A stretch of 46,152 nucleotides of DNA, taken from contig JAGAKF010000075.1 of NCBI GenBank assembly GCA_017625835.1, positions 1 through 46,152 on the forward strand. The letters run 5' to 3'. The translations under genes were made by a program, and so were the position numbers. Every line of letters starts with the position of its first letter. Position 1 is the first letter of the stretch. Below are positions 6,614 to 46,152 of the stretch, piece after piece. This stretch comes from Clostridia bacterium. GTDB taxonomy: Bacteria > Bacillota > Clostridia > Oscillospirales > Acutalibacteraceae. The notes beneath the pieces are model-generated. The model was not told the origin of the DNA, did no database searches, and worked only from the letters and a program-made list of their open reading frames with translations.

Positions 6614-7616
6614 GTGGTACGTTGAAAACGGCGAACAGGGTGATATTGTAATAAGTACCCGTGTCCGTCTTGCAAGAAATCTCGAGGATTATCCGTTCCC
6701 TTGCCGTCTTACCGTTAAGGGTAAGGAAAAAGTCTGCGAAGAAATCAAAGATGCGATTCTCTCTGACGACAGTTGGGGATTCGGCTACACATGGATGAAG
6801 GATTTTACAAGAGCGCAGTCAGTCTCTCTTGCGGAAAGACATCTCATCAGCCCCGAATTTGCGTCCGACAGAGCCGGAAGAGCCCTGCTCCTTACTGACG
6901 ACGAAGCTGTGAGCATTATGCTTTGTGAGGAGGACCATATCCGCCTCCAGGTAATGATGGCAGGCCTCGCGCTCAAGGAAGCATACAGTGTTGCCGACAA
7001 AATCGACAACATCATTTCCTCAAAGCTTAACTATGCATACGACGACAGAATCGGTTATCTTACGCAGTGTCCTACAAATCTCGGCACGGCTATGAGAGCA
7101 TCGGTTATGCTTCACCTGCCTGCACTTACACGTTGCGGACAGATCGGAAAACTCGCTTCAACCGTATCGAAGCTCGGTCTTGTTATCCGTGGAGCTTACG
7201 GCGAAGGCAGCAGTCCCAAGGGCGACGTTTATCAGCTCAGCAATCAGATAACTCTCGGAATTTCCGAAGAAGCTGCGCTTAACAATCTTCAGTCAATCAC
7301 ACTTCAGCTTGTAGCTCAGGAAAGAGCTGCAGCGGAAAAACTTATCGAAAATCCCATCGAGGAGGACAGAATCTTCCGCGCTTGGGGTATACTCAAAAAT
7401 GCAAGGGTGCTCAGCGGTGACGAGTTTATGGAGCTTTCGTCACTTTTAAGAATGGGTATCTCTAATAAGTCAATCAATTTTGACATCACAAAGCTCAATG
7501 AGCTTACAACAAGAGTTCAGCCCGCAACAATAAATGCTGCAGAGGGAAAAGAACTTACATCACAGCAGAGGGATATCCTTCGTGCCAAGTGGGTAAGAGA
7601 AGCTCTTGATTCATAA
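6606..7616 (+). CDS. mcsB: Protein arginine kinase McsB
   Basis: A 336-residue member of the phosphagen (guanidino) kinase fold that phosphorylates arginines on CtsR and on misfolded proteins, marking them for ClpCP. Visible motifs are ISTRVRLARNL at the N-terminus, SLAERHLISPEF, the CPTNLGTAMRASVMLHLPAL active-site loop with its conserved Cys, and RGAYGEGSSPKGDVYQLSNQ near the nucleotide-binding region. Length is normal. The start lies inside the 3' end of mcsA, with GGAGG upstream. A hairpin follows the stop. Confidence 0.96.
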   Translation: MNKWYVENGEQGDIVISTRVRLARNLEDYPFPCRLTVKGKEKVCEEIKDAILSDDSWGFGYTWMKDFTRAQSVSLAERHLISPEFASDRAGRALLLTDDEAVSIMLCEEDHIRLQVMMAGLALKEAYSVADKIDNIISSKLNYAYDDRIGYLTQCPTNLGTAMRASVMLHLPALTRCGQIGKLASTVSKLGLVIRGAYGEGSSPKGDVYQLSNQITLGISEEAALNNLQSITLQLVAQERAAAEKLIENPIEEDRIFRAWGILKNARVLSGDEFMELSSLLRMGISNKSINFDITKLNELTTRVQPATINAAEGKELTSQQRDILRAKWVREALDS

Positions 7617-10149: not shown

Positions 10150-11094
10150 TTATTCCTGTCTGAAAATGATGAATGTAATTCGGGAAAAAAGATCGGATTC
10201 GAACGGTATCTGTCCGAAAATAAGCGGAAATCCTGCAACAAAAACAACAGCAAGCAAGAAAAGCAAAGTGTGGTTTTTGCAAAACAGACTGAAACGGTTA
10301 AACATGCTGTCCTTGTCCTGATCTTCTGCACCGAGCATAGCGAGAACTATAAAGGATGAAACAAGAATAAGAACAACTGCGTGGTAGTTTTCGCTCATCG
10401 CAAATCCCCAGAGGCTTAAAACGAATGAAACAACAATTGAGACAGATGCAACAACTTTTTTCTTTAAAGCCAGACTGACAACAAAGAAAAGTAAAATTGC
10501 AATAAGCGGAATTGATGCAACTGCATACTCACCGAGAACTTTCAGATGTGTGTTTGAAAAATGCACAAGGTGAACCGCAAGAGGGTAGGCGCTGAACTGA
10601 TCGGCATAAAAATCGTTTTCAGCTAAAAGATTTGTAACTATAAACGCGCCGATTGAACCCAATGCACTCAGCAATGCTAAAACTTTTTGCTTTGACGAAA
10701 GAAGATATCCTACAACCGACGGCACAAGCAGCAGAATTGATAACGGCTGAGCGAGAACGCAGAGCGCAGAAAAAATCGGAGTGATAAACCTGAACTTTTT
10801 TGAAAAAGCAAGGGACAGCATAAAAAACGAAAGGGAAAGAAGTATGTGTACGTCGCCCGTAAGAAAAATCAGGTTGCAGGAAGTGATGCTTAAAAAAGCA
10901 AAAGAATTAAGATAAATGTTATCGTCAGTTTTTGCCGAAAAAGAGAAAAACAAAGCTGAGCTGACGCAGACAAGCAGTCGCAGAGCAAACAGAACGGGAT
11001 CGTCAAACCTGCCGTAAATGATGCTGAGCAACGCAAGAACTGCGAAAGAAGACAGAGCATATTTGTTTTTAAAAAACAGAGCTTTGATTTTCAT
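10150..11094 (-). CDS. Polytopic membrane protein, possible GT-C type glycosyltransferase or glycan-assembly protein
   Basis: A 314-residue protein with roughly nine hydrophobic segments. I do not recognise a defined family. The pattern of many helices, a short acidic loop (LTGDVHILLSLSFF) and a proline in a helix (CVLAQPLSILLLVPSVV) resembles small polyprenyl-phosphate-sugar-dependent GT-C enzymes, but the similarity is weak. It starts 3 nt after the stop of another membrane gene and is the last gene of the sugar-nucleotide operon, which supports a role in building or moving the glycan. A different membrane function is possible. Confidence 0.7.
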   Translation of the reverse strand: MKIKALFFKNKYALSSFAVLALLSIIYGRFDDPVLFALRLLVCVSSALFFSFSAKTDDNIYLNSFAFLSITSCNLIFLTGDVHILLSLSFFMLSLAFSKKFRFITPIFSALCVLAQPLSILLLVPSVVGYLLSSKQKVLALLSALGSIGAFIVTNLLAENDFYADQFSAYPLAVHLVHFSNTHLKVLGEYAVASIPLIAILLFFVVSLALKKKVVASVSIVVSFVLSLWGFAMSENYHAVVLILVSSFIVLAMLGAEDQDKDSMFNRFSLFCKNHTLLFLLAVVFVAGFPLIFGQIPFESDLFSRITFIIFRQE

Positions 11095-25568: not shown

Positions 25569-26474
25569 TTACCAATTGATTTCATAAACGGACCTTGTTC
25601 CGCAGGGGAGAATAATGCCTGCCTTATCAAAGTGAATTGTCCATTTAAAGTCATACTCTGCCGTAAGAACGTTACCTGTCTGGGAATCTACTGTAACTTT
25701 GATTGTTGAAGAAGGATATGCGAGGGAAACTGTGCCGATCATATCCTTTGCGACAGGCGGAATATTTTCGTTAACGTCATCAGGAAGGATGATGTTGAAT
25801 GCTTTCGGATTGTGTCCCTGACCGTGTTGGTGCGAATCTGATTTAGCATCAGCAACTGTTACGATTGTGATTGTGTAGATACCATCTTTCTCTGTGCATG
25901 CAGCTGACTTAACATCTGACGGTGTAAGCTTACTTGCGTAGCTTTCTCCTTCAACAGGGAAGTGTGTCTTGATATCGGTGCCTTTGTATGTAGCAGAACC
26001 CTGAGAGTTTTCTTTAAGCATCTCGCCTAACCATTCGTCGCCACCGAGCATTTTATACACGCTTTGAATGCTGTTGGGGATAGTGGTTGGATTAGCCAGG
26101 TAGTTTGTAACTGACTTCTGGTTAACTGATTTAGCATCTGTTTTAACTTTATTGATTGCCGTGTTGAAATATCCAAGCGTTTCGGCTCCGTCTTTCGGAG
26201 TGGTCGGTTCAATATCAGGCTTGATCAATCCAACAGAAATCTGAAGCACGATGAGCGCGTCGGAAGAATTAACTTTTTTGTCTTTGTTCATATCAGCAAC
26301 GTTTTTGTTGAAATCTTTCGGACTTATACCGACAGCATACTTAAGAATTCCCAGAGCATCACCTGAATTAATTTTACCGTCAGAGTTAACGTCGCCTGCA
26401 GTTGCGGCAAAAGCGGTAAAGGTTGATGCGAAAATAATTCCGAGAACGAGTAGCGCACAAAGTATCTTTTTCAT
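25569..26474 (-). CDS. Secreted protein A with N-terminal dockerin
   Basis: A 301-residue exported protein. Residues 1-23 are a signal peptide (MKKILCALLVLGIIF...AFA). Residues 26-87 form a type I dockerin with two calcium loops, DVNSDGKINSGD and DMNKDKKVNSSD, each followed by an ILKYAVG/VLQISVG helix. Residues 100-301 are an alpha/beta region of unknown function that shares its layout with proteins B and C (a YFNTAINKVK start, SKLTPSDVKSA, and VDSQTGNVL near the C-terminus). No catalytic motif is recognised. Last gene of the D-C-B-A cluster. A dockerin would let it bind a cohesin on the surface. Confidence 0.85.
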   Translation of the reverse strand: MKKILCALLVLGIIFASTFTAFAATAGDVNSDGKINSGDALGILKYAVGISPKDFNKNVADMNKDKKVNSSDALIVLQISVGLIKPDIEPTTPKDGAETLGYFNTAINKVKTDAKSVNQKSVTNYLANPTTIPNSIQSVYKMLGGDEWLGEMLKENSQGSATYKGTDIKTHFPVEGESYASKLTPSDVKSAACTEKDGIYTITIVTVADAKSDSHQHGQGHNPKAFNIILPDDVNENIPPVAKDMIGTVSLAYPSSTIKVTVDSQTGNVLTAEYDFKWTIHFDKAGIILPCGTRSVYEINW

Positions 26475-26479
26475 TATAA
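26368..26479. repeat. Near-perfect DNA repeat, copy 1 (5' end of gene A)
   Basis: These 112 bp match 29235-29346 without gaps and with one difference that I can see (26454 against 29321). The segment covers the signal peptide, the first dockerin loop and a few bases upstream of the start codon. Confidence 0.9.
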
Positions 26480-26553
26480 ATTCTCCTCAAAAATTAATTA
26501 TACTGAAACTTCCTTATGGAAACTCGGCAAAACAGTCTCTTTTTTTGTTCGGT

Positions 26554-28374
26554 TTAGTTCCAGCAAACTCTTACTGTTACACCGTCCTCTTCAAGAACGA
26601 ACTTTGCTTTTGCTGCCTTTGTTTCATACTCTTCAACTGAAGACATTTCAACAAAAGAAATTGGACGTGTTGTTCCGTCTGCTGCGTTATTGTAAATTGT
26701 TGTAACGTTCTTAAGGCCTTCTATAAATGCCTGTGCCATTTCAGGAGTCTTGAGTGTAAGCTTAGAGTCAACACGGAGACGGTTTGTATAGTCAGCGTCT
26801 ACGTTATACTTAGCAAATGCAAGAGTTCCGGGAACGAAACCTGTGCACCACCATGTATATGAAGGACTTCTTGAGAAAATAAGGCTGAACTCGTTTGAGC
26901 TTGAAGTCTCACATCTGTAAACGTTCATGCTCTGAAGAAGCTTTGTCTCATCGTCTGCACAGTTGTAATGTGTGCTCGGTGTTGAGCTTGCAGGTCTGTT
27001 GTAAATACCGATCTCAGCACCAACAAGCACAAGACCGTACTGACCCTTCCAGTACTGGATCATCCACTGGAGTCCGTCATAGTCGAAGTATACACGGATT
27101 GTGTCGTATGTAATAGCAAGAACAGGAGCTGATTCGTCGTAGATCTCGTTATAACCGTACTGTCTCTGCCATGCATCCTCGGCTGTTATGAAGCACTTAT
27201 CCTTTGTTGAATACTTGAAGCCGAAAAGACCTGTGTCTTTGCCTTCAGTGCTTTCAACATTGATGTTTCCGTCTTCGTCAATTGCCCATTTAACCTCATT
27301 TGTAAACTTCTGCAATGATTCAATAGTATCTTGCAAAGTAACTACAGGTTTATTATTATTAATTATCTCATTGTTTTCGGTGTTCGGCTTTGTGTTCGGC
27401 TTGCTGTTTGAACCGCCTGAGTTGCTTGATCCGGCCATAAACTTCATTTTGTTCACACAGGTCCACTTGCCGTTAATTGAGCCTACCGTAATGTTGACAC
27501 CGACAGCTGTTGCTCGTGCGTTTGTAACGCTAAGGGGCATTTCTGTTTTTAAATCAGTAACTCTTCCTTGATCGTCAACAGTGGCGGTGATTTTTGTCCC
27601 GGGATAATTGAAGGTACATTCCTTGATTGTAACGGCCTGACCGAAATCTATAACGTTAATATCGAGAGGCCAGGAACAAGAAGCATTGTATTCTGCGGTT
27701 TCTGTATGCGCACAAGATTCAGAATTAAGAACAATAATGATCTGGTATCCTGTTCCGTTCTTCTGGATGTTAATGCTTTTTACAGCTTCATCATAGAGAT
27801 TTGACGGAGCAATAAAATTTTCGACGGGCGAATCGTCGTCCGTAGCCTTTCCGTCAACGAAGCTTTTTTCCTGGATAACACCGTTGTTTTTTGTGTTATT
27901 TGCGATGATTGCGTTTGCAAACTGGTCAGCATTGATCCCTGCTACGCCGACATCAATCCCTGAAACTTGCACATCAACCTGTTCAACCTTTATGGCATCC
28001 ATATTCTGCGAGTAGGAGCTTTTAAGGCAAGTGTTGTAGTAGTTAATAAGCTGGGATTTATTATATGTAAGCGGTTCGTCTGTGTCAGGCTTCTGAGTGT
28101 TTTCTTCAGAAGGTGGCTGAGGGAAAATTCCTACAGAAATCATAAGAACAATAAGAGCATCTGATGAGTTGATTTTGCCGTCATTATTCATATCGGCAAC
28201 GTCAGAATTAAATGTCGCAGGAATACTTCCTACGGCATATTTGAGAATAAATAAAGCGTCACTTGAATTAATTGTTCCGTCAGAATTGACGTCGCCCTGA
28301 GTTCTGGAAAATGCCATGACCGTCGAAGCGATAACAATTGTGAAGGCAAGCAACATACATAATGTTTTCTTCAT
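26554..28374 (-). CDS. Secreted protein B: N-terminal dockerin, shared central domain, C-terminal DUF4474-like domain
   Basis: A 606-residue exported protein. The signal peptide (MKKTLCMLLAFTIVIAS...) is followed by a dockerin (loops DVNSDGTINSSD and DMNNDGKINSSD). Residues 105-325 match the central domain of proteins A and C in layout (YYNTCLKSSYSQN, YQIIIVLNSES, ITATVDDQGRV). A Ser/Asn/Pro linker follows (SSNSGGSNSKPNTKPNTE). Residues 350-606 contain DAWQRQYGYNEIYD, FDYDGLQWMIQYWKGQYG and GAEIGIYNRP, which I recall as the DUF4474 family of Firmicutes; its function is unknown. The start at ATG 28374 is chosen over the GTG one codon earlier; AAGGAG lies upstream of both. Confidence 0.83.
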   Translation of the reverse strand: MKKTLCMLLAFTIVIASTVMAFSRTQGDVNSDGTINSSDALFILKYAVGSIPATFNSDVADMNNDGKINSSDALIVLMISVGIFPQPPSEENTQKPDTDEPLTYNKSQLINYYNTCLKSSYSQNMDAIKVEQVDVQVSGIDVGVAGINADQFANAIIANNTKNNGVIQEKSFVDGKATDDDSPVENFIAPSNLYDEAVKSINIQKNGTGYQIIIVLNSESCAHTETAEYNASCSWPLDINVIDFGQAVTIKECTFNYPGTKITATVDDQGRVTDLKTEMPLSVTNARATAVGVNITVGSINGKWTCVNKMKFMAGSSNSGGSNSKPNTKPNTENNEIINNNKPVVTLQDTIESLQKFTNEVKWAIDEDGNINVESTEGKDTGLFGFKYSTKDKCFITAEDAWQRQYGYNEIYDESAPVLAITYDTIRVYFDYDGLQWMIQYWKGQYGLVLVGAEIGIYNRPASSTPSTHYNCADDETKLLQSMNVYRCETSSSNEFSLIFSRSPSYTWWCTGFVPGTLAFAKYNVDADYTNRLRVDSKLTLKTPEMAQAFIEGLKNVTTIYNNAADGTTRPISFVEMSSVEEYETKAAKAKFVLEEDGVTVRVCWN

Positions 28375-28390
28375 CACAATTTCTCCTTAT

Positions 28391-29341
28391 TTAAGTTGCG
28401 CTGTAAGACCTTGAATCAATACTTGAATCTTTATATGTCACGTGTGAAATGCCTGAAGCGGTAGCGGACATGCCCATAAGATTTGAAATAGCAACCTGCT
28501 GATTCCACTCCACAAGAAGGTTTACAAGGTTTCCTGTTTTTGAATCAATTTCTGCTTTAACGATTGCGTTTGTATAGCTTTCTTTGATTTCAGCTCCTGC
28601 ATATGTACCTGCGATTGCATCATAGATAACGGAGGCGGTCTTGTGGTCAAAGCAAGCCTTATCCTCTGTTTCGACGCAGATGCCGCATTTGTCGAGAGCT
28701 GAGTTTGCGGGAGTTGTCGGGTTAGTCTTGTTTGCGGAACTTGAACCGTTTTTCAGCTTGAGCGTAATGATATAGTTGTTACCTGACTGTGTGCATGTTG
28801 CTGATGTAACATCAGAAGCTGTCAGTTTACTGTTGTAAAGGAAAGCAACGCTACCCCAATTACCTTTTGCAACAGTCTCGGTATAAGCATTTTCAGCGCC
28901 GATACCCATAAAAGTGTAAACAAGGCTCTTCATTGCTTGAAGCGCAACTGAACCATCCATTTTTTCATTGTCAGTTATTCTTGTTTTGCTGAATCCTGCT
29001 TTTGAAGATACGGCTTTATTTACTGCAGTGTTGAAATATTCAAGCGTTTCAGCTCCGTCTTTCGGAGCGGTCGGTTCAATATCGGGCTTAATCAATCCGA
29101 CAGAAATCTGAAGTACGATAAGAGCATCCGAAGAATTAATTTTATCGTCCTTGTTCATATCAGCAACGTTTTTGTTGAATTTTGAAGGGCTTGAACCAAC
29201 TGCATACTGCAGAATAAGTGATGCATCAGATGAGTTAATTTTACCGTCAGAGTTAACGTCGCCTGCAGTTGCGGCAAAAGCGGTAAAGGTTGATGCGAAA
29301 ATAATTCCGAGAACGAGTAGTGCACAAAGTATCTTTTTCAT
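28391..29341 (-). CDS. Secreted protein C with N-terminal dockerin
   Basis: A 316-residue exported protein. Its first 30 residues are almost identical to protein A at the DNA level. The dockerin covers residues 26-87 with loops DVNSDGKINSSD and DMNKDDKINSSD. The rest is the same class of unknown domain as in A and B: YFNTAVNKAVS, NSKLTASDVTSATC, YIITLKLKNG and IDSKTGNLVNL. Two Cys residues in DKCGICVETEDKACFD may form a disulfide. It begins 45 nt after D and ends 16 nt before B. Confidence 0.83.
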   Translation of the reverse strand: MKKILCALLVLGIIFASTFTAFAATAGDVNSDGKINSSDASLILQYAVGSSPSKFNKNVADMNKDDKINSSDALIVLQISVGLIKPDIEPTAPKDGAETLEYFNTAVNKAVSSKAGFSKTRITDNEKMDGSVALQAMKSLVYTFMGIGAENAYTETVAKGNWGSVAFLYNSKLTASDVTSATCTQSGNNYIITLKLKNGSSSANKTNPTTPANSALDKCGICVETEDKACFDHKTASVIYDAIAGTYAGAEIKESYTNAIVKAEIDSKTGNLVNLLVEWNQQVAISNLMGMSATASGISHVTYKDSSIDSRSYSAT

Positions 29342-29346
29342 TATAA
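29235..29346. repeat. Near-perfect DNA repeat, copy 2 (5' end of gene C)
   Basis: This is the partner of 26368-26479. The rest of the dockerin coding region is similar but with many silent differences, which suggests gene conversion or a recent partial duplication. Confidence 0.9.
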
Positions 29347-29386
29347 GTCCTCCTGTACGACAGATTTTAGAGAAATTTTACGCTTT

Positions 29387-30193
29387 TTAACCAAGTTGTT
29401 CAAAAGCGTCTTCTTCGAGCTTTGTGTAACCTGTAAGGTCGAAAAGTGATTTGTCTACACTGTCCCTAAGCTCGTGAATCTCACAGATTGAAACTGTATC
29501 GCCTTCGATAACTTCCTGACGAACCCATTTCTTGCCTTCAAAGTAGTACTTCGCTACGACTCCGTCAGCAGATCTGTATTCTTCACAAGTATATGTTTTA
29601 CTGCCTTCCTTAACGGTAGTAGTTTTTACATAAGTATCGTTGTTGGATCCTGCATTCATAAGGTCGCCTACGCCCATCTCGTCACCGTCGGCTTCCACGT
29701 ACATTTTTGTTCCCAAATAATCAAAGGCAATGTATGTTTTTCTACCCTTGGTAATAACTCTTGTGTTGATGCCGTCCAATGACATAGCTGTGGCAAAATT
29801 ATCGCCGTCCATAGTGATAGTTGCAGGTATTTTTTCGTCCTCACCAATGACGGTCAGCGAAAGAGTAAATTTCTTGTCGTTAACAACCTTACCGATAACT
29901 TCATCGCGGAGTGTAGTTTTGTTTGAATCTCCGTTGGGCTTAATCAATCCGACGGAAATCTGAAGCACGACAAGAGCGTCCGAAGAATTGATTTTTTTGT
30001 CATTGTTTATATCAGCAACGTTTTTGTTGAAGTCTTTCGGACTCATACCGACGGCATATTTAAGAATTCCCAAAGCATCGCCTGAGTTGATTTTGCCGTC
30101 AGAGTTAACGTCGCCTGCAGTTGCTGCAAAGGCGGTAACGGTTGAAGTAAGAAGAATTCCGAGAATAAGCAGTGCAGAAAAAAGTTTTTTCAT
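29387..30193 (-). CDS. Secreted protein D with N-terminal dockerin
   Basis: A 268-residue exported protein. The signal peptide (MKKLFSALLILGILLTST...) is followed by a dockerin with loops DVNSDGKINSGD and DINNDKKINSSD. The C-terminal part (about residues 95-268) is a beta-rich domain: KFTLSLTVIGEDEK, ATITMDGDNFATAMS, KTYIAFDYLGTKMYVE, and EGKKWVRQEV. It resembles small lipoprotein-type beta domains that bind hydrophobic ligands, but I cannot name a family. First gene of the cluster. Confidence 0.83.
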   Translation of the reverse strand: MKKLFSALLILGILLTSTVTAFAATAGDVNSDGKINSGDALGILKYAVGMSPKDFNKNVADINNDKKINSSDALVVLQISVGLIKPNGDSNKTTLRDEVIGKVVNDKKFTLSLTVIGEDEKIPATITMDGDNFATAMSLDGINTRVITKGRKTYIAFDYLGTKMYVEADGDEMGVGDLMNAGSNNDTYVKTTTVKEGSKTYTCEEYRSADGVVAKYYFEGKKWVRQEVIEGDTVSICEIHELRDSVDKSLFDLTGYTKLEEDAFEQLG

Positions 30194-30349: not shown

Positions 30350-32545
30350 TTATGCCTTTGTAAACCAGAACTCGCTTAACATAAAGCCGTCAATCGGTTC
30401 TGTAATTTCAAGAGTAGCGCTGCTGTTTACAATAAACTCTTCGGGAATATCGTAAACAATGCTCCGATATCCGTCTGCGAGATAAAGTTTTTCAAATTCT
30501 TCGTCTCTTACACCGCCGTACTGTTTACCGTCGTGGATAACATTGCCGTTAATTGTAACTTTGTGGTGAATGATATCGTCGTTCAGGTTGGTTTTGTAAG
30601 TGATTCGGAGCTTATAATCGCCGTTGGTAAGGCCAGCAACCGTAGTTTCAAAATTGAAATGGTCGTAAACCTTTGTCATACACATCGGAAGCTCTGCATC
30701 AAAGTTCATATCTCCGCGGAAATTCATATAGAATTCGCCCTTCTGCTTTCCGCAGACTTCGAAGCCGTGCTCGGCAAACGAAAAATAATACTCGTCGAGT
30801 TCAACCTTGTTTCTGTCGATGAGCTTCAATGCGTTTTCGGGATTCTTGCTCAGTTTTTCAAGCAGATAACGTCTGTCCGTAACGGGATTGTCGATTGTCA
30901 TAAGAGTACAACCACGCTCCCATTTCATGCCGTGATAATGCTCAACGTCAAGCTGAATGCCGATCTGATTGAAAAGGATTTCTGCAAATTCATCAAGCTT
31001 CTGACGGTTGGCTTTATATTCGTCGCTGAAATCTGTTGCAAGAATTTCAATCGCCTTGTCCGTTTCACCTTTGCGGATAAGAATTTCAGCCTCTTTAATA
31101 AGATCAAGCTCAAAAATTCTTCTGTCACGTACGATTTTGTCGCAGTAAGCTCTGAAAAGATGAAGAACAAATCTCCAGTTTTTCATAAGCTCGGGATATT
31201 TTTCAGCAAGGGCAACGAAACCTTCAAAAACAGCTTGAATATTACCGTTTTCTTTCGGGTCGCAGCTCCAGTTCTGCTCAAGCGAAATAATAAGTTCTGC
31301 AATAGCATCCGTGTCAGCACCGAAGAAGAACGTACGGCAATAATCCTGAACGCATTCTCTTAAATCGTAATTGAAATCAAGATCCATTGCGCCCCAGACC
31401 ATTTTGTTAAGGTCGTCATTAACGCCTTCTGAATATGTAACGCTGCCAACAGCATACTGACGTGTCAATCTGTGATACTGTCTGTATTCCGAAGGACGAG
31501 GATTGACTGCTTCACGGCTGAGCGTTGAAGCAAGTGCATAATGCCAGTCGTCACGGTCGAAGTGGACGGGTGTCTCACAACGCACGTTATGACCGATGTC
31601 GGGATAAAGGCGTATCGGATAACGCTTGTCGATCTTTCTGCGGAGCTCGTCAAGCGGCATTGCGTGGTTCGGCCCGTAGATAACACCGTCAATTTCCTCG
31701 GGAAGCTTTGACATTTCGTTTACAAATCTTTCACCCCAGTCGGGATATTCATGCGGAGCCTGAGCTGACGGCCACATCTGAACATTCGGGAAAACTTTCT
31801 GCAGCTCACGCTTCATTTTTACACAACGCTGAACAAAAGCTTCACCCTGCATATCGCCCGGGTCTCCTCCCGGTGGGAAAAGGACGTCAAGCTTCGGCAG
31901 GTCGTCGTAAAGCTTGTGCATTTTTGCGATTGTTTCTTCGTCGCTGTCCTTGGTCCAGAGCTCGTGCCATACGGAAAGGTCAATATCGTATTCGACGCAG
32001 ATTTCGGACATTGCGATAAGCATTTCTTTCTGTGAATATCGCATAAGGGTGCTTGTTTCTTCACGAACGCCTGAGTCAGCCTCGACCATATTTGTGCCGA
32101 AAAGCATAAGGTCGCGGATGTAACGCTCATATTCAGCCTTGCCCCACATATCAACGGTGTTGTTCATATCAGTGTAGCTGAGCTGATGACCGCGGATTTT
32201 CATTGAAGGTGTTCTTGAAATGCTGATGTTTTTCACAAGATATATTTTGTTGCCGTCGTAAACTGAACTCTTGATAAATTCAGCAAAGCCGTAAATAAGG
32301 CTTCTGAGTCTGTGCGCGATGATGAAGATTTTGTCTTCGTCGTGGTTTACGGTATATTCTTCGCTGTCACTCTCATCCTCTATTTTTAGTGAAACGAAGT
32401 TGTCTGCAGGAGTTTCGTTGACAATTTCAGGAGCAAAACCTGTCCTGAGTTCAACTTCCTCTGCAAAAAACTCTGCGGCTTTTATTTCCACAGGTGTATC
32501 TGCAATTATTTTGAAATCTGAAAAATCATATCTCACAAAAATCAC
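30350..32545 (-). CDS. Cytosolic glycoside hydrolase-like protein (GH20/GH67-type N-terminal domain plus barrel)
   Basis: A 731-residue protein without a signal peptide. The N-terminal 80 residues (KAAEFFAEEVELRTGFAPEI, then HRLRSLIYGFAEFIK) have the alpha/beta layout found before the barrel of GH20, GH67, GH84 and GH115 enzymes. The next part looks like a TIM barrel (TPSMKIRGHQLSYTDMNN, YERYIRDLMLFGTNMVE, LSVWHELWTKD, DVLFPPGGDPGDM). A helical region and a C-terminal beta domain (VKINGNV-like, ITEPIDGFMLSEFWF) follow. The exact family and substrate are unknown. The start may be GTG 32545 or GTG 32536; the latter has better spacing to AAGG. The gene is monocistronic. Confidence 0.8.
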   Translation of the reverse strand: MIFVRYDFSDFKIIADTPVEIKAAEFFAEEVELRTGFAPEIVNETPADNFVSLKIEDESDSEEYTVNHDEDKIFIIAHRLRSLIYGFAEFIKSSVYDGNKIYLVKNISISRTPSMKIRGHQLSYTDMNNTVDMWGKAEYERYIRDLMLFGTNMVEADSGVREETSTLMRYSQKEMLIAMSEICVEYDIDLSVWHELWTKDSDEETIAKMHKLYDDLPKLDVLFPPGGDPGDMQGEAFVQRCVKMKRELQKVFPNVQMWPSAQAPHEYPDWGERFVNEMSKLPEEIDGVIYGPNHAMPLDELRRKIDKRYPIRLYPDIGHNVRCETPVHFDRDDWHYALASTLSREAVNPRPSEYRQYHRLTRQYAVGSVTYSEGVNDDLNKMVWGAMDLDFNYDLRECVQDYCRTFFFGADTDAIAELIISLEQNWSCDPKENGNIQAVFEGFVALAEKYPELMKNWRFVLHLFRAYCDKIVRDRRIFELDLIKEAEILIRKGETDKAIEILATDFSDEYKANRQKLDEFAEILFNQIGIQLDVEHYHGMKWERGCTLMTIDNPVTDRRYLLEKLSKNPENALKLIDRNKVELDEYYFSFAEHGFEVCGKQKGEFYMNFRGDMNFDAELPMCMTKVYDHFNFETTVAGLTNGDYKLRITYKTNLNDDIIHHKVTINGNVIHDGKQYGGVRDEEFEKLYLADGYRSIVYDIPEEFIVNSSATLEITEPIDGFMLSEFWFTKA

Positions 32546-37880: not shown

Positions 37881-37900
37881 TTATGGAGGTGCAATCCAAA

Positions 37901-40900
37901 ATGAGTAATGCAAAAAGATTTTTGAGTGTTATTCTTGCAATCGTAATGATGTGCTCAACACTCGTAATCGGTGCAAACGCTGCATACACTGCTTATAAGG
38001 ATTCTGCTATTGTTAATCAGTACAACAAGCTTGACAAGGCAGTTCTTACAACAGAACAGTATGCATCAGCAGCAATGGATGAAGTTGACCGTATGCTCAC
38101 AAAGGAACAGCTTAAGTTCACACGTGAGGATATCATCGTTGGTGATATCGATCTTACATCCATTGACGCAGCAATGGACTCTGTTTACGCAATCGTTAAC
38201 GGTGCTCTCTTCTCATCATTGAAGGGTATGCTCGGTGACCTTCAGAACTTGAATGCTGATGCATTCGCAACTGAAGCTAAAGGCGGCGTAAGAAGAGGTA
38301 CAGCAGGTAAGACTGACGCTGACATCATTTATGCAGTTCTTCAGTTCTTGCACGACAACACAGACCTTCTCGTTTCATTCGTAGAAGGCACCCTCGACAC
38401 AGGTTCTATCCTCAGCTCAATCATCGACCTCAGTGAGTTCATGGACGTTAACAAGCTCCTCAAGGGTCTCCTTTATGAGTTTGCTTACGGCGTAGAAGGA
38501 ACAGATGCTCAGGTAGCTGCTTCTTCTGTTGACACAATGGCTCAGGACCTTATCGACAAGTATGTTGTTACAGGTTATGACGAGGAAAACGATGACGGTA
38601 CAATTGAGCACGTAGATGGTCTTGTTCCCGCTCTTGCTGGTAAGACAAACATCTCAACAGGCACAATGTACACATTCCTCGATAACGTTATTAAGGTTCT
38701 CTACAATGAGCTTCTCGTTCCTCTTATGAACGGTGACCTTAAAAACACAATCAAGAGATTCTGTGGCGTTACTTACATCGATAATGGTGACGGTACATAC
38801 ACAGAAGATCGTTCAGCACTCAACGAGTACGCTGACCTTCTTAACATTGATTATGAAGTTCCTGTTTATGAATTCACAAGCGAAACATTCATCTCTCAGG
38901 GCAACAACATCATCAAGTCAATCCTTGATCAGCTCGTTAAGCCTGAAGTTATCGTATGGCAGGCTGGCGGCAAGGAAGCTTTCAAGCCGAACCTTGTAAG
39001 AGTTGCTAAGGAACTCCTTGAAAACGCAGGTGACGAACTCTTCGCAGATTACGTTGAGCTTGCTACTCCCGAAGAGCTTGAAGCTATGACAGACGTTGAA
39101 CTTGTTGTTTACGCAGTTCGCGCTATCGTTAACAGCTCAGCTTTCGGTATGTATATTCCTGAAACAGATACAATCCGTGAGTTTGCATTTATCGCTCTCA
39201 AGCAGATTCTTGCAACAGACGTTCCGGCTCTCGACTTCTCAAATCTTGATCCGAACAGCACAGATTCTCTCGTTATCATGGGTATCAACTATGCTATCCA
39301 TGCTGTAAGCGCAGAGCTTGACCTTGGCCTTGAGTTTGTTGACTCAATGGAAGGCGTTGACGCTCAGCTTAAGAAAGCAGCTGACTACGCAGTAGAAAAT
39401 TACGGTGGTCTCCTCAACGGTATCACATTCGAAGACGGTGCTTCAGGTTGGGATACAATCGACACAGTTATCTTCTCAATCATTCCTGAAAGCTGGCTTC
39501 CGACATCAGCTAACGGCAGCTTGAAGAACTTCATCTTCACTCTCGTTAACACAATCGCTGATCTCGAAATCGAAAACCTCTTCTCATTGTTTGAGTACCG
39601 TTCAGATTCAGAGCTTCAGAAGACTCCGAAGCAGGTTCTCATCAACCTTGTATCTCGCGTTATTAACATCATCTTCCCGGGTGCTTTTAAGGCAAGTACA
39701 ACAATCGACGGCCTTGTAACAAACGCTGCTCTCGCAGGTACAGTAAGAGCTATCTTCGATGCTCTCTGGAACTACAGAAAGAACCTTGTTAAGGCTATCC
39801 TCCCGACACTTTGCGGTATCCTTGATCTTACAAACGATCAGGAATTCGAATTCCCTGAACTTACTTGGGACCCGACAGACGCAAACGTTGACGGTAACTC
39901 AATCAGAACTGCTGGTTCAGTTGCTATCAAGCTTATGGTTCGTAACGGATCAACAGGTATCAACACTGGTTATACAGATACTAACGGTGTATTCCACCAG
40001 GATCAGCTCTATACATATGACATCCAGTCAGTTACAACAAACGTTTCAGGTATGAACGTAACATATCCTGATACAATCGCCGGTGGTCAGACAGTTGAAA
40101 TGGCATTCACAGGTGCTGTTAAGGCTTCAACACCGTTCGTTGTTACAATGACATACGACGTTCTTACTGAGGACGGTTCAACTCTTACAGAGGAACCCAT
40201 CACTGAGACAATGTATTCATACATCGCTTACAACGAGCAGCCCGACGACCAGACAAAGCTTACATCAACAACAGTTGGTAACTTCTCAATCATCGACGGT
40301 CCTCGTTACCTCTATGCAACAGGCATGGGCGATCTCGAAGACATCACAATCACAATCCAGAACGACAATGCTTCAGAAGCAACAGCTGTTCCTTACTACA
40401 CACAGCAGAAATCAACTGCTAACAGACTCCTCGGTGCAGCTTCAGATACAGACGTTTATCTCCAGCTCCTCACAGATGAGACAAAGATTATGCAGAAGGT
40501 TGAAGATACAGCAGGTATCGCAAACATGAAGATGTTTGAAACAACAGAAGCATACAACGCTCTTACAGGCGAAGAAAAAGACGCTGTTTGGGATCAGATC
40601 GTTACTTACGGTACAGTTACTAACCCGAACACAGGTGCTGTAACTCGTTACCCGAGAATTCAGCTTACACTTGGTGCTACAATCAACGGCTCAACAAAGG
40701 TTCAGAACACTGGTGTTCTCGTATACTGCTACAAGGATTACGGCCTTCCCGGAATGCTTGAAGACGAAATGGGCAAGCACCGTCAGCAGTCAGCTTATGC
40801 TACAGCTGCTTCAACAGTATTTGAAGGTTCAACAGTTTGGGAAGCATACACACAGGCTATGGAAGCTGCTTCAAAGGCTGTTTACAGCTGCTTCCGTAAC

Positions 40901-41950
40901 GGTACATTCATGACATTGACAGGTAAGTTCAGCCTCTATGAGCCTGCTTACAACAACCTCAAGGCAGCAATCGAAGAGCTTGATGCACAGGTTCTTTCAG
41001 CTGGTGTTGAGTCATCAGAATTGCTCATCGAGAAGTGCTATCCGTCAAATCCGGAAGACCTTATGTACTACGATCCTGCTTACATCCACCAGGGTGTATC
41101 AGACTATGTAGCATATACATACTACAACTTCCGTGACGAATTGAGAGCTCTCGAAGGTATGATCGAATCAGCTACAGTTCCTGACGAAGAAGGCAACGTT
41201 GCAGTTGTTAACGAACTTGATAAGGCTTATAAGGAGCACAGATTCTCACTTTACTTCTCAAGACTTCTTCCGGCTCCTGTTTACAAGTCACACCTTCAGG
41301 CAGAGCTTGCTAATCCGACACGTGAAATCGGTGACGAATCAGAGTACGATGCAGACGCATGGTACAACTACGAAGTAGCTCTTGCATTCGCAACAGCTAC
41401 AGCAAACGAAGCTGACGCTAACCCGACAAAGGTTAAGACAGCTTATCGTGAACTTCTCGAAGCTGAGAAGAGACTCGTTCCTCCGTCAGAGGACATCGGC
41501 GGCGGTGACGTTTCATACCTCCCGACTGAGACAGTTGAAATCATCGAAGCAATAGATGGTTCACAGATCATTACAGGTATAGACCCGAACAACGATCTTG
41601 CTGACTACTTCACATGCGAAGGCTGTTACGTAGAAGTAACTGCAAACGCAGCATTCGAAACTAACTCAACAGGTGCTGTTGTTGAAATCAAGAGTGAGGC
41701 AGACGATTCAGTTCTTGCAACATACACAGTTGCTGTTTTCGCTGACATCGACGGTGACGGCGTAACAGACATTAGTGAAGTTAACCAGGCTCTCCTTATT
41801 TCTGCAGGTTCAGTAAGCTACGACGATATCACCTTGACTTCAGCTGACATCACAGCCGACGGTATCGTTGACGTTTCAGACCTTGGTCCGTTCTTGCTTG
41901 TTGCATCTGGTTCAGCGATTGTTGATGCTGAAGCTAGAACAATTGGTTAA
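37901..41950 (+). CDS. Large secreted protein with C-terminal dockerin
   Basis: A 1349-residue exported protein. The signal peptide is MSNAKRFLSVILAIVMMC...NAA. Residues 30-670 are mostly helical, of a type I do not recognise. Residues 690-840 appear to be a beta-sandwich (SVAIKLMVRN, TMTYDVLTEDG). Residues 1000-1195 are helical again, with FIVAR-like pieces (AWYNYEVALAFATATANE). Residues 1203-1280 form a beta module before the dockerin. The dockerin-like end (about 1280-1345) has loops DIDGDGVTDISE and DITADGIVDVSD. The start at ATG 37901 follows GGAGGTG; an ATG at 37883 lies inside that binding site. Codons are strongly biased, as in dnaK. It is probably an abundant surface protein; function unknown. 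Confidence 0.85.
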   Translation: MSNAKRFLSVILAIVMMCSTLVIGANAAYTAYKDSAIVNQYNKLDKAVLTTEQYASAAMDEVDRMLTKEQLKFTREDIIVGDIDLTSIDAAMDSVYAIVNGALFSSLKGMLGDLQNLNADAFATEAKGGVRRGTAGKTDADIIYAVLQFLHDNTDLLVSFVEGTLDTGSILSSIIDLSEFMDVNKLLKGLLYEFAYGVEGTDAQVAASSVDTMAQDLIDKYVVTGYDEENDDGTIEHVDGLVPALAGKTNISTGTMYTFLDNVIKVLYNELLVPLMNGDLKNTIKRFCGVTYIDNGDGTYTEDRSALNEYADLLNIDYEVPVYEFTSETFISQGNNIIKSILDQLVKPEVIVWQAGGKEAFKPNLVRVAKELLENAGDELFADYVELATPEELEAMTDVELVVYAVRAIVNSSAFGMYIPETDTIREFAFIALKQILATDVPALDFSNLDPNSTDSLVIMGINYAIHAVSAELDLGLEFVDSMEGVDAQLKKAADYAVENYGGLLNGITFEDGASGWDTIDTVIFSIIPESWLPTSANGSLKNFIFTLVNTIADLEIENLFSLFEYRSDSELQKTPKQVLINLVSRVINIIFPGAFKASTTIDGLVTNAALAGTVRAIFDALWNYRKNLVKAILPTLCGILDLTNDQEFEFPELTWDPTDANVDGNSIRTAGSVAIKLMVRNGSTGINTGYTDTNGVFHQDQLYTYDIQSVTTNVSGMNVTYPDTIAGGQTVEMAFTGAVKASTPFVVTMTYDVLTEDGSTLTEEPITETMYSYIAYNEQPDDQTKLTSTTVGNFSIIDGPRYLYATGMGDLEDITITIQNDNASEATAVPYYTQQKSTANRLLGAASDTDVYLQLLTDETKIMQKVEDTAGIANMKMFETTEAYNALTGEEKDAVWDQIVTYGTVTNPNTGAVTRYPRIQLTLGATINGSTKVQNTGVLVYCYKDYGLPGMLEDEMGKHRQQSAYATAASTVFEGSTVWEAYTQAMEAASKAVYSCFRNGTFMTLTGKFSLYEPAYNNLKAAIEELDAQVLSAGVESSELLIEKCYPSNPEDLMYYDPAYIHQGVSDYVAYTYYNFRDELRALEGMIESATVPDEEGNVAVVNELDKAYKEHRFSLYFSRLLPAPVYKSHLQAELANPTREIGDESEYDADAWYNYEVALAFATATANEADANPTKVKTAYRELLEAEKRLVPPSEDIGGGDVSYLPTETVEIIEAIDGSQIITGIDPNNDLADYFTCEGCYVEVTANAAFETNSTGAVVEIKSEADDSVLATYTVAVFADIDGDGVTDISEVNQALLISAGSVSYDDITLTSADITADGIVDVSDLGPFLLVASGSAIVDAEARTIG

Positions 41951-41980
41951 TTATTAAGGTTCTTTACTACAATGCAAAAA

Positions 41981-42036
41981 TCCCTCGGAGGCGAAAGCCT
42001 CTGAGGGGAAACGGCGAGAGGTCAGCTCTATGCCGT
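41981..42036 (+). other. Two stacked hairpins between the first and second surface-protein genes
   Basis: Hairpin 1 is an 11-bp stem with one mismatch and a GAAA tetraloop (41982-41992 with 41997-42007). Hairpin 2 (42011-42036) has an outer ACGGC/GCCGT stem and an inner AGAG/CTCT stem. No T-run follows either. The second gene's ribosome binding site (AGGAGGA, about 42054-42060) is 18 nt downstream. This could be an mRNA processing or stability element setting the ratio of the two proteins. Confidence 0.6.
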
Positions 42037-42067
42037 GTATCAGAATGATAGACAGGAGGAATAAAAA

Positions 42068-43147
42068 GTGAAAATTTCTAAGAAAATTCTTGCTATTCTT
42101 CTTGCTGTAACTCTTGCTCTTTCCCTCTTTGCTGTCAGTGCATCCGCTGCAGGCACTCCGACGGGAACAGAAGCAATGACAGTAACAGTTACAACGGATA
42201 ATGAAACATATGAAGCAGAAGCTGCTGTTCAGGTTCGTGTAACAATTGCATGTAACTACAATGTTCCGTCTTTCCGTTTCCCGATTATGTTTGACTCATC
42301 AGTTTATGAGCTTCCGACAATTATCGGCCTTAAGGCACAGGGTACTTGTGCTTCTAAGGGAACAATCAACTCAAACACCACTAACGGTGGTGCAGATTTC
42401 ATTCCTGAAGCTTACGATTCATCAGCTTTCGGTTGCGTTCTCGTTCAGTGGACAGCAACAGTTGCTAACGGTGAAGTAGGTTATCTCAATAATGAAGCAG
42501 GCGAGCTCGCTTTCACATTCGAGCTCAAAACAAAGGCATCTGCTGTCGGCAAGACAGGTACGATTTTCATTCCTGCTGAGTCAGATCTTTTCTACTATCA
42601 GGCAATCGAAAATCCTGCAGATGCAACAACATTCTACTATCTCGATGCTGAAACATGTCCTATGACATTTGTTGAAGCTAATGCAATGGTAGTTGGTGAG
42701 CAGGTGGACCTTGTTCCTAACGAGGATTACGGCACACCCGCAACTATTGATGAAGAAAACCGTCGCGTTTACGGCTTTGCAGAAGGTATTTTAAGTAATG
42801 CTGAAATCAAGGAATATGTAAAGGCAACAGGCGGTGCAGTTATCCGTTCAACTCCGACAGATCTTGGTTACGGCACATGTACAAAAGTCAATCTCGCGAT
42901 TGATGGTACAACTGTTAAGTCATATGACCTCATTATCTTCGGTGATATCGACGGTGACGCAATCTGTGATATCAATGACTTACCATACGTCCTTTCTTAT
43001 ACTGCTGGTTCAACAATTTGTGATGATCCTGTTATCCTTTTTGCAGGTGATCTTACAAACGATGGTGTAATAGACGTTGATGACCTTTCAGTATTCTTGT
43101 TAGCAACAAATGGTTCTATAGTCATTGACCAAACAAATCCATACTAA
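42068..43147 (+). CDS. Secreted protein with N-terminal cohesin-like domain and C-terminal dockerin
   Basis: A 359-residue exported protein. A signal peptide (KISKKILAILLAVTLALSLF...ASA) is followed by a cohesin-like beta-sandwich (about residues 38-200): AEAAVQVRVTIACNYNVPSF, FPIMFDSSVYELPTI, and the late strand GELAFTFELKTKASAVGKTG. Residues 228-287 are a small beta module matching the one before the dockerin of the 1349-residue protein. The dockerin has loops DIDGDAICDIND and DLTNDGVIDVDD. Having both a cohesin-like and a dockerin module would let it link other proteins in a chain. The start is GTG 42068 after AGGAGG. Confidence 0.82.
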   Translation: MKISKKILAILLAVTLALSLFAVSASAAGTPTGTEAMTVTVTTDNETYEAEAAVQVRVTIACNYNVPSFRFPIMFDSSVYELPTIIGLKAQGTCASKGTINSNTTNGGADFIPEAYDSSAFGCVLVQWTATVANGEVGYLNNEAGELAFTFELKTKASAVGKTGTIFIPAESDLFYYQAIENPADATTFYYLDAETCPMTFVEANAMVVGEQVDLVPNEDYGTPATIDEENRRVYGFAEGILSNAEIKEYVKATGGAVIRSTPTDLGYGTCTKVNLAIDGTTVKSYDLIIFGDIDGDAICDINDLPYVLSYTAGSTICDDPVILFAGDLTNDGVIDVDDLSVFLLATNGSIVIDQTNPY

Positions 43148-43196
43148 TCAATTTTAAATTGATTATTTGGTAATATTAATTTAGGAGGATTATTCA

Positions 43197-46152
43197 ATGA
43201 AACTCACAAAAAAAGTTTTGAGTGTTGTACTTGCTCTTGTACTTGCACTCAGCGCTTTCGCAGTTGTAGGTTCAGCTAACGGTAATCCTGATACAGCCAA
43301 TTACAATGTTAAAATTTGGCTTACAGGTGCAGTTGGTGAAGTAAACTGGGAAACAAAAACTAGAGTATCCATTACTGAAGGTGATGAGTCAGCTCCTGGT
43401 GCTACTATCGAAGTACAGCCCGGCGACGAAGTAATCGTTCGTTTCTATATCACGAATGACTACTATGTTCACACTTTCCAGACAAACGTTTTCTATTCAT
43501 CTCGTCTTATCGACGCTGCTGAGTTGTATATGACTCAGACAGGTGCAACATCTTGTGCAACAGCACGTCTTGCAAAGATGCACCTTTGGAACGAAGATGA
43601 CCACACTTGGACTAACGACCAGGGCACATCAAACGCAGCAAACAATGCTTGGACTAACCAGGACCCGACATTCAACGCTAATGTTGAGCAGAACTGGCCG
43701 ACAGATGACGAGGGTAACAACCTCTTCAATATGGAAGACTGGAAGTTCAACCGTTTCAACAACCTTACACAGGAAAAGGCTGGCGTAACATATATTTGGG
43801 ATGAAGAAGTATGGCTCTTCAGCATGCCTGTTTCAGTTCCCACTGATGCTGAGCCGGGCGAAACATTCTATGTTACAATTCCTGAAGGCCTCGAGCAGAG
43901 AACAGCTAAGAAGTACGGCGCTCTCAGACTTTCTGAAATCGGTATCGCAGAAGGCGAATCAGAGCCCAGCGACATCGTTGACGCACAGGCACTTCTTACT
44001 CCGAATATGCAGTACGGCGACGACAACCAGTACTACGATCTTTCAGAAGCTACTCTTACTCTTCAGGTTCCTGGTGCTTCAGAGCCTGAACTCGATTACA
44101 CAAACATTGATGCAGCACTTGATGCAGCTTCAAAGGTAGATCGTTCAGACAAGACAGCAGCATCTCTTGCAGTGCTTGATCAGGAAATCAACGAAGCAAC
44201 AGAAGCTCGCTTGAACGCAACAGAGCAGGAAGCTCTTGAAACAGCAGCTACAGAACTCAACGCAGCTATCGCTAACCTTAAGGTTAAGGCTGACTATGAT
44301 AAGCTCACAGCACAGATCACAAGATACGAAGCAATCACAGATTCTTCTATCTATCCTGCAGCTGATTGGGCAACAGCAACTGATAAGTACAACGATGCTA
44401 AGGCAGTTGATACAGACCTTTCAGTTGACGATCAGGCTACAGTAGATGCAGCAGCAGATGCTCTTGAGGCAGCTCTTGATGCTCTTGCAGCTCTCGATTA
44501 CTCAGCTCTCGAAGCTAAGTACAACGAGCTCGCTGGTAAGGACGTTGCTAACTACACAGACGATACAGTTGCACGTTTCAACGCAGCTCTTGCAGCAGCT
44601 AACACTCTTATCACAGAGAAGAACGCAGCTAACCAGGATGCAATCAACGCAGTTTACAATGAACTCGTAGCAGCAGACGCAGCTCTTGCTCTTAAGGCAG
44701 CTGATTACACAGCTCTTAAGGCAGCTATCGCTAAGTACGAAGCTCTTGATGCTAAGGCTTGGACAACAGTTTCTTATGCAGCAGCAACAGAGAAGTACGA
44801 TGCAGCTAAGGGCATCGCAGAAGGTCTTGACATCACAGCTCAGCCGGCAATCGATAAGGCAGCAGCAGATCTTGAAGCAGCTATCACAGCTCTTGTTCCC
44901 GCAACAGGCGCTAACTACAATGAACTCAACGCAGCTAAGGCAGAGTTCGAAGCTCTCGTAGAAGAGTATTACACAGAAGATTCATATGCAGCAGCTAAGA
45001 CAGCATATGATGCAGCTTGTGAAGTTCCCGCTGATCTTACATCAGAGCAGCAGGCACAGATCGACGAGGCAGCAGCAGCTCTTACAAAGGCTCTTGGTGA
45101 ACTCGTTGAAGCAGACGCTGATTACACAGCAGTAGAAGCAGCTAAGGTAGCAGCAGCAGCTAAGGTTGCAGAAAACGATCAGGGTATCCTTCGTTACACA
45201 GACGATTCTATCGCAGCTATCAACGACGCTGTAGCAGCAGTTGTTGAAGGCCTCAAGAAGAAGGATCAGGCAACAGTTGACGGTTATGCAGAGGCTATCA
45301 ACGATGCTATCGATGCAGCTGAGTACAGACCGTACGACTACTCAAAGATCCTTGCTCACATCGAAGCTATCGAAGCTAACGATGCTGATTACTACGTTAC
45401 AAAATCTTATGAAGAGTATCTTGCAGCTAAGGCTGGCATCAACTGGGATTACACACATGAGCAGTTCGGTTTGGCTAAGCTTCAGGAAATCAACTTCTTG
45501 AAGGTTAACCCGGCAGTAGCTGGTCCGGCTGATTACACAGATGTTGATGCAGCTGAGGCAGCATTCGATGCTAAGAAGGCAGCAGCTAACTACACTGCAG
45601 ATTCAATCGCAGCTGTAGACGCTGAAATCGCTAAGGTTAACAGAGACCTTAACGAAAATCATCAGGCAGAAGTTGACGCTTATGCAGAAGCAATCTACGC
45701 AGCTATCGAAAAGATGGTAGAAGTAGTTGTTGAGTACGCTGATTACACAGCATACAACGAAGCTCTTGCAGCAGCAAAGGCAGTTGACGCAACACCTTAC
45801 ACAGCAGCATCATACGATGCATTTATCGCAGCTGTAAACGAAATCGATGCTGGTCTTGCTAAGGATCTCCTTGCAGCTGATCAGGCAACGGTTAACGATG
45901 CAACAGCAGCTATCGGTAACGCATATTCACTCCTTGAAGAAGTTGCTGATTACTCAGCACTTGAGGCAGCTATCCTTCGCGCTGGTACATACGACCAGAA
46001 CGTATGGACAACAGACTCATGGGCAGTTGTAGAAGAGAAGCTTGCAGCAGCTAAGGCAGTAGCTCCTGATCTTGGCGTATCAGCTCAGGACGAAATCGAT
46101 GCAGCAGCAGAAGCTCTTAACACAGCTCTTGATAACCTCAAGGCTAAGGAAG
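43197..46152 (+). CDS. Large secreted protein with N-terminal cohesin-like domain and many FIVAR-like repeats (partial, runs off the window)
   Basis: An open frame from ATG 43197 (after TTAGGAGG) to the window end, 985 codons with no stop. A signal peptide (MKLTKKVLSVVLALVLALS...) leads to a beta-sandwich domain (about residues 25-290; TIEVQPGDEVIVRFYITND, FQTNVFYSSRLIDA) similar to the cohesin-like domain of the preceding protein. From residue 300 on there are at least ten helical repeats of 62-72 residues, each starting with a D/N-Y pair (DYTALKAAIAKYEAL, DYSALEAKYNELAGK), of the FIVAR type found in long adhesins and extracellular sugar-binding proteins. The repeats probably form a stalk. 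The C-terminus is not visible. Codons are strongly biased (GCA/GCT, CTT, AAG). Confidence 0.85.
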   Translation, partial: MKLTKKVLSVVLALVLALSAFAVVGSANGNPDTANYNVKIWLTGAVGEVNWETKTRVSITEGDESAPGATIEVQPGDEVIVRFYITNDYYVHTFQTNVFYSSRLIDAAELYMTQTGATSCATARLAKMHLWNEDDHTWTNDQGTSNAANNAWTNQDPTFNANVEQNWPTDDEGNNLFNMEDWKFNRFNNLTQEKAGVTYIWDEEVWLFSMPVSVPTDAEPGETFYVTIPEGLEQRTAKKYGALRLSEIGIAEGESEPSDIVDAQALLTPNMQYGDDNQYYDLSEATLTLQVPGASEPELDYTNIDAALDAASKVDRSDKTAASLAVLDQEINEATEARLNATEQEALETAATELNAAIANLKVKADYDKLTAQITRYEAITDSSIYPAADWATATDKYNDAKAVDTDLSVDDQATVDAAADALEAALDALAALDYSALEAKYNELAGKDVANYTDDTVARFNAALAAANTLITEKNAANQDAINAVYNELVAADAALALKAADYTALKAAIAKYEALDAKAWTTVSYAAATEKYDAAKGIAEGLDITAQPAIDKAAADLEAAITALVPATGANYNELNAAKAEFEALVEEYYTEDSYAAAKTAYDAACEVPADLTSEQQAQIDEAAAALTKALGELVEADADYTAVEAAKVAAAAKVAENDQGILRYTDDSIAAINDAVAAVVEGLKKKDQATVDGYAEAINDAIDAAEYRPYDYSKILAHIEAIEANDADYYVTKSYEEYLAAKAGINWDYTHEQFGLAKLQEINFLKVNPAVAGPADYTDVDAAEAAFDAKKAAANYTADSIAAVDAEIAKVNRDLNENHQAEVDAYAEAIYAAIEKMVEVVVEYADYTAYNEALAAAKAVDATPYTAASYDAFIAAVNEIDAGLAKDLLAADQATVNDATAAIGNAYSLLEEVADYSALEAAILRAGTYDQNVWTTDSWAVVEEKLAAAKAVAPDLGVSAQDEIDAAAEALNTALDNLKAKE
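44094..46152 (+). repeat. FIVAR-like protein repeat array (at least ten units)
   Basis: Tandem coding repeats of about 190-215 bp. Unit starts were read at residues 300, 366, 434 and 503, and then at regular intervals marked by D-Y or N-Y. Each unit has a first helix, a Y-T-x-x-S/T turn, a second helix and a third helix ending in AAxxLxxAL. DNA identity between units is only moderate, so this is an old array that still evolves as separate units. Confidence 0.8.

Follow-up and report, generated by a model that had tools for sequence, protein, structure and literature searches.

Two co-varying dockerins and a divergent cohesin-like domain suggest a docking hub encoded by a three-gene operon of an uncultured gut bacterium

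Which cohesin receives which dockerin, if three neighbouring genes encode two of each? The question is raised by the distal part of contig C65, whose full 46152 bases are called the window here. It belongs to the genome (2.09 Mb, 77% complete) of an uncultured gut bacterium. The three adjacent ORFs, all on the + strand like their modules described below, are A1 (37883..41950, 1355 aa, with orthologs in 13 other genomes of the genus), A2 (42068..43147, 359 aa) and A3 (43197..46152, 985 aa up to the contig end). The initial annotation had seen cohesin- and dockerin-type modules in these genes and had proposed a dedicated multi-protein assembly, a linear chain without hydrolases. All module matches of the window proteins were below the Pfam cut-offs, the domain assignments therefore lean on relatives. 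With Pfam matches of orthologs and profile comparisons the claimed modules were recovered, the A3 cohesin as a likely one, and the idea of a dedicated assembly was supported. We consider it probable, at about 0.6, that the operon encodes a docking hub in which the A3 cohesin receives both the A1 and the A2 dockerin, while the A2 cohesin serves another partner. A Pfam scan detected neither hydrolase nor CBM modules in A1, A2 and A3, as had been claimed for the hydrolases. A cellulosome is defined by a multi-cohesin scaffoldin recruiting dockerin-bearing glycoside hydrolases; the three genes encode single cohesins without a hydrolase module, so the annotation was right not to see a cellulosome in them.

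The small protein A2 has the clearest architecture: a signal peptide (by eye) is followed by a cohesin (residues 34-205, 42167..42682), an X module (about residues 213-285, 42704..42922, from alignments) and a dockerin (42944..43111). Pfam listed no cohesin, dockerin or FIVAR match at E<=1 for the window protein. Among 14 A2 orthologs, Dockerin_1 was listed at this limit for nine (best E=1.5e-10) and Cohesin (PF00963) for seven (best E=6.9e-4). Comparison of the N-terminal domain by hhalign with 32 Pfam-detected cohesins yielded a probability of 96.7%, a score of 62.4 and an E-value of 4.4e-10; the maximal score of 60 column-shuffled controls was 21.6, and the C-terminal module of A3, aligned as a further control, scored 17.0. 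The domain is thus a cohesin by significant profile similarity. The A2 profile matched solved dockerins, among them 2ccl_B (E=6.8e-7), and by its two calcium loops and the Pfam matches of the orthologs the C-terminus is a type I dockerin (PF00404) with the residues IN in repeat 1 and VD in repeat 2 at positions 10/11. Both modules predicted for this gene were confirmed. Queried with one canonical cohesin from this genome, phmmer gave no PDB match at E<=0.001.

A1 starts with a signal peptide (by eye) and a region of about 1100 aa without known family, followed by a FIVAR-like module (residues 1136-1198, 41288..41476), an X module (about residues 1205-1280, 41495..41722, by alignment), named from its place ahead of the dockerin, and the dockerin itself (41744..41902). 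Only sub-cut-off Pfam matches were obtained with the window protein, namely to FIVAR (E=0.0047), FG-GAP, a methyltransferase and dockerin (E=0.19). Four orthologs presented matches of the FIVAR, dockerin and FG-GAP type; the FIVAR match of the ortholog L089 (E=2.3e-6) was slightly below the cut-off. In more distant orthologs the dockerin match reached 4e-10 and exceeded the cut-off in L186 and L144. The two calcium loops with dockerin spacing and the ortholog profile match assign the C-terminus to type I dockerins (PF00404), as had been annotated; positions 10/11 are occupied by IS in repeat 1 and VS in repeat 2. A profile of the N-terminal region matched no PDB chain at E<=1, and in a class-wide sample the region was present at E<=1e-10 in 2 of 391 genomes, the window's own genome included.

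A3 comprises a signal peptide (by eye), a cohesin-like domain (residues 30-295, 43284..44081) and a FIVAR-type stalk (residues 296 on, 44082..46151). Again, Pfam listed no cohesin, dockerin or FIVAR at E<=1 for the window protein. The stalk is 50.8% identical to gene 3 of L089, an A3 ortholog with five FIVAR stretches (Pfam E=2.1e-12), which supports this part of the annotated layout. The N-terminal domain was related to cohesins by hhalign with probabilities of 74-79% and scores of 37.7-41.2 over about 40 columns (shuffles at most 21.2), weaker than for A2, and with 91-95% to the A2 cohesin. A search of the PDB at E<=10 gave two matches, both non-significant, 2ww8 (E=0.17) and the ScaE cohesin 2zf9 (E=0.19). 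Because of the weaker cohesin match and the lack of a significant PDB match, the cohesin fold of this domain is graded as likely. The reverse strand of contig C68 starts with the same 112 bases that end the A3 contig, and the frame is open to a stop codon; very likely A3 continues on C68 and ends in a C-terminal module without known family. The two pieces were analysed separately. The C-terminal module matched no PDB chain at E<=1; an Ig-like nature, considered by eye, was backed by no search. Half of the module is also present on a CHAP protein of the same genome (L235, 1630-2580, - strand), and two of its large secreted proteins carry the module as well (L233, 1292-9196, - strand; L234, 1938-6293, + strand). 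The CHAP protein is the sole pointer, a hint, to a wall anchoring of A3. An LPXTG sortase signal, the mark of a ScaE-type anchor, was not seen by eye in the A3 ends inspected, including those from 10 genomes.

The operon is conserved within the genus. Some match to A2 was present in 17 of 18 genomes, and in all 14 with a full-length or nearly full-length A2 the three genes lie side by side on one strand (A3 of L097-L099 was identified in this check from the stalk alone). A wider contig scan revealed at least 79 loci, of which 23 were inspected. A2 was matched over most of its length in 11 more distant loci, nine of them with an A1-type N-region upstream (L136, L139, L140, L141, L144, L145, L156, L170, L186), separated from A2 by another gene in L144 and L145; no such region was present upstream of A2 in L155 and L204. 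The source titles among the scan matches listed included MAGs from cattle colon, sheep rectum, goat cecum, roe deer colon and horse feces. A paralogous block of an A1-like protein, a FIVAR-type protein with X-dockerin and a cohesin-like protein occurs on contig C2 and in relatives; at L052 (2091-13450, - strand) it consists of three genes, two for X-dockerin proteins and one for a protein with a cohesin-like part. In six sets from 17 scanned loci, one with a truncated third protein, co-variation of this block was weak for the second dockerin and the cohesin (30/720) and non-significant for the first dockerin and the cohesin (119/720).

The A1 and A2 dockerins were compared with each other within and between genomes. 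Positions 10, 11, 14, 15, 17, 18, 21 and 22 of each repeat, which we take to be the recognition positions, were fixed before testing. Parts of the literature on dockerins name residues 10-12, 15 and their equivalents (PMC5301203, PMC5429695). Over the 14 genus genomes, A1 and A2 dockerins shared an identity of 0.50 at the recognition sites within a genome versus 0.19 between genomes (0/5000 permutations), and the own A2 was the best partner of A1 in 12 of the 14. The other dockerin positions had 0.33 within versus 0.25 between (2/5000), while the X modules did not co-vary (0.17 versus 0.17; 2597/5000). When 25 positions of each repeat were scanned, the mean excess within a genome amounted to 0.32 for the chosen positions and 0.14 for the remaining ones, compared with an average of -0.001 for 64 X columns. 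The highest ranks were held by r2-18, r2-23, r1-10, r2-10, r1-22, r2-7, r1-11, r1-18 and r1-9, and all except r2-23, r2-7 and r1-9 belong to the chosen set. Positions 10/11 had no shared residue between A1 and A2 in four genus genomes (L088, L089, L090, L091). Over all 22 loci the values were 0.44 versus 0.14 for the recognition sites (0/5000) and 0.24 versus 0.20 for the X modules (26/5000, a small effect); a hand-picked subset of 14 loci, which is not relied on, gave 0.55 versus 0.16 (0/5000) and 0.27 versus 0.20 (15/5000). Outside the genus, the A1 and A2 dockerins mismatched in four of eight loci (L139, L156, L170, L186), and the A1 dockerin of L145 has a single repeat. The A1/A2 dyads recurred in none of the 31 further dockerins of the genome that Pfam detected and that were read (32 hits minus one overlapping; one second repeat was unread and a few registers were mis-set by the pattern). 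An X-dockerin protein outside these 31 (L053) has VS in the second repeat, as in A1.

Gene conversion offers another origin for this likeness: the variable segments may be surface domains that diversify and are swapped by recombination, with two dockerins that are alike as a remnant of conversion and not through a shared partner. Conversion does occur. In L144 the 3' ends of A1 and A2 (6818-7258 and 10577-11017) are 97.3% identical across 441 bases, and judging from this match the dockerin likeness in L144 is the result of a recent conversion, in L145 partly so; also the co-variation of non-recognition positions fits such a process. However, when the 3'-terminal 450 bases of the A1 and A2 genes were compared in each of the 14 genus genomes, DNA matches spanned 18-61 bases and were absent in six. 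With so little shared DNA, recent gene conversion does not explain the likeness in the genus set, and the concentration of the likeness at recognition positions speaks further against this explanation, which we regard as unlikely.

The partner of the matched dockerins was sought among the two cohesins. Partial Mantel tests over the 14 genus genomes related the dockerin sites neither to the A3 cohesin (rho 0.00, p 0.49) nor to the A2 cohesin (-0.06, p 0.63). We read this null result as a reflection of saturated dockerin distances; hence seven close genomes, a subset picked after the null test, were analysed. Within this subset the A2-dockerin sites tracked the A3 cohesin with a rho of 0.77 (4/5040), the A1-dockerin sites alone with 0.52 (71/5040) and both combined with 0.65 (28/5040), or 0.63 (38/5040) with the A1 N-region controlled. 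The combined sites did not track the A2 cohesin (0.20, 959/5040).

One pair of genomes presented the change most clearly. Between L097 and L098, differences were limited to 5% in the A1 N-region, 4% in the A2 cohesin and 6% in the A2 X module, with 28% in the A1 X module, versus 62% at the A1 dockerin sites, 88% at the A2 dockerin sites and 69% in the A3 cohesin. The operon DNA aligned by blastn in blocks of 93.0, 92.8 and 91.5% identity with two breaks, the first covering the A1 dockerin and the spacer after it, the second the A2 dockerin, the spacer and A3 to the end of the cohesin. Past the second break the A3 stalk is 75-97% identical per step of 40 residues. The sharpness of these breakpoints would also suit an exchange of diversifying surface domains. 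Since the A2 dockerin adjoins the A3 cohesin on the DNA, one exchange could carry both, but the A2 cohesin, itself unchanged, lies between the two replaced stretches, and a single exchange does not account for the A1 dockerin. The A2 cohesin was nearly constant between genomes with differing dockerins; when G000 is compared with L088, divergence extends to the A3 stalk. Nearby genes of L097 and L098 are 87-94% identical, save one 278-aa gene at 59.6% beyond the operon (L097, 3900-4736, - strand; L098, 12800-13636, + strand); its product, as seen in L137, comprises a profile-detected dockerin and, by eye, a cohesin-like part.

These observations bear on the chain of A3 stalk, A2 linker and A1 end piece that the initial annotation had put forward. 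The modules needed are present in a fitting order, and its first joint, the A2 dockerin in the A3 cohesin, agrees with the tracking in the seven close genomes. The second joint, the A1 dockerin in the A2 cohesin, is disfavoured by L097 and L098, where the A2 cohesin remained static (4%) as the A1 dockerin changed (62%), and by the co-variation of both dockerins. We hold the complete chain for improbable. A2 with its own cohesin and dockerin may also polymerize head to tail, with A3 as root and A1 as cap, which would agree with the co-varying recognition sites of both dockerins; the A2 cohesin stayed constant despite an exchanged A2 dockerin, and the unusual permissiveness required renders such a polymer the least credible arrangement. 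A hub, in which A3 has A1 and A2 as its alternative ligands, suits the data better than the chain does. The A1 dockerin, the A2 dockerin and the A3 cohesin were replaced together around an unchanged A2 cohesin, therefore both dockerins probably plug into the A3 cohesin: that the plugs and one socket seem to change jointly between related species suggests which parts fit.

In the proposed hub, A3 would be a stalk protein, probably cell-bound and perhaps held by its C-terminal module, that exposes one divergent cohesin as the common socket for two calcium-binding plugs. A1, a large secreted protein, would bear one plug, and the small adaptor A2 the other. The A2 cohesin would offer another socket, a conserved one, whose partner may be the dockerin class common in the genome. 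Adhesion or display is the presumed function.

Further dockerin proteins are encoded elsewhere in the genome. Ten proteins were scanned: eight have Dockerin_1, another is a papain-like protein whose end is of the X-dockerin type, and the last is the CHAP protein with half of the A3-type module. The eight also bear LRR repeats (three proteins), CotH, SH3, an M23 peptidase with cohesin, or nothing further known (two proteins). In the window, four tandem genes (25569-30193, - strand) encode strong N-terminal dockerins, one together with DUF4474; these proteins are possibly cargo of the A2 cohesin. Glycoside hydrolases were absent from the part of the genome's dockerin proteins covered, i.e., the eight Dockerin_1 proteins, one X-dockerin-type protein and the four window genes. 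Beside the tandem genes, an ORF at 30350-32545 (- strand) has a weak match to GH20 domain 2 below the cut-off. A conserved GQ-type X-dockerin class as partner of the A2 cohesin is kept as no more than a lead, with four of 19 listed rows fitting the class pattern. The M23 peptidase protein (L025, 9492-13802, - strand) combines its cohesin with a dockerin of the QL/TL dyad type, and its gene adjoins further cohesin ORFs.

FIVAR adjoins dockerin also in the cohesin/dockerin glycosidase complexes of Clostridium perfringens, and the X-dockerin profile reached the hyalurononglucosaminidase 2jnk/2ozn (E=3.7e-4). However, the cohesin-dockerin pairs described for C. perfringens join glycoside hydrolases (PMC12997984), a module lacking in A1-A2-A3. 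The single-cohesin protein ScaE of Ruminococcus flavefaciens is described as an anchored receiver of the X-dockerin dyads of CttA and ScaB (PMC5301203, PMC5429695, PMC3573020). The genes of this receiver, of the surface protein CttA and of the scaffoldin ScaB lie in a single cluster, the sca cluster, and its adaptor ScaC resembles A2 in pairing one lone cohesin with a dockerin (PMC5301203, PMC5429695, PMC3573020). The A3 cohesin is only weakly similar to that of ScaE (2zf9, mentioned above). The operon would probably work like the ScaE-CttA-ScaB hub (PMC5301203, PMC3573020). ScaE is LPXTG-anchored, whereas A3 has a FIVAR-type stalk; CttA is believed to bear CBMs and the ruminococcal system includes enzymes, in contrast to the operon. 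The gut mucinolysome of Limousia is likewise a cohesin-dockerin system, and its cSca5, with one sortase-anchored cohesin, is predicted to receive the dockerins of two scaffoldins, as proposed for A3, but also to bind most GH dockerins (PMC12997984). It differs by its enzymes, tandem cohesins and sortase anchor, and the main text on it does not mention FIVAR (PMC12997984). Among the titles and abstract beginnings of the literature matches listed, no account of this operon or of a joint switching of cohesin and dockerin was found; one query returned mostly papers on eukaryotic cohesin.

The A3 lock and both its keys would have been replaced together between species, so that each lineage has its own fit. 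Recombination that swaps the stalk socket and both plugs together may even serve self-recognition for shared surface parts, a tentative thought for which we see a modest chance. Secreted A1 and A2 would then be kept by the lineage of their maker and be unusable by neighbouring species. As a hub, the operon would represent a cohesin-dockerin assembly whose three genes show no hydrolase and whose largest protein contains about 1100 residues of no known family. The pair L097/L098 is a natural module swap that points to the cognate pairs, and the hub would make directly testable how cohesin-dockerin specificity changes without breaking the assembly.
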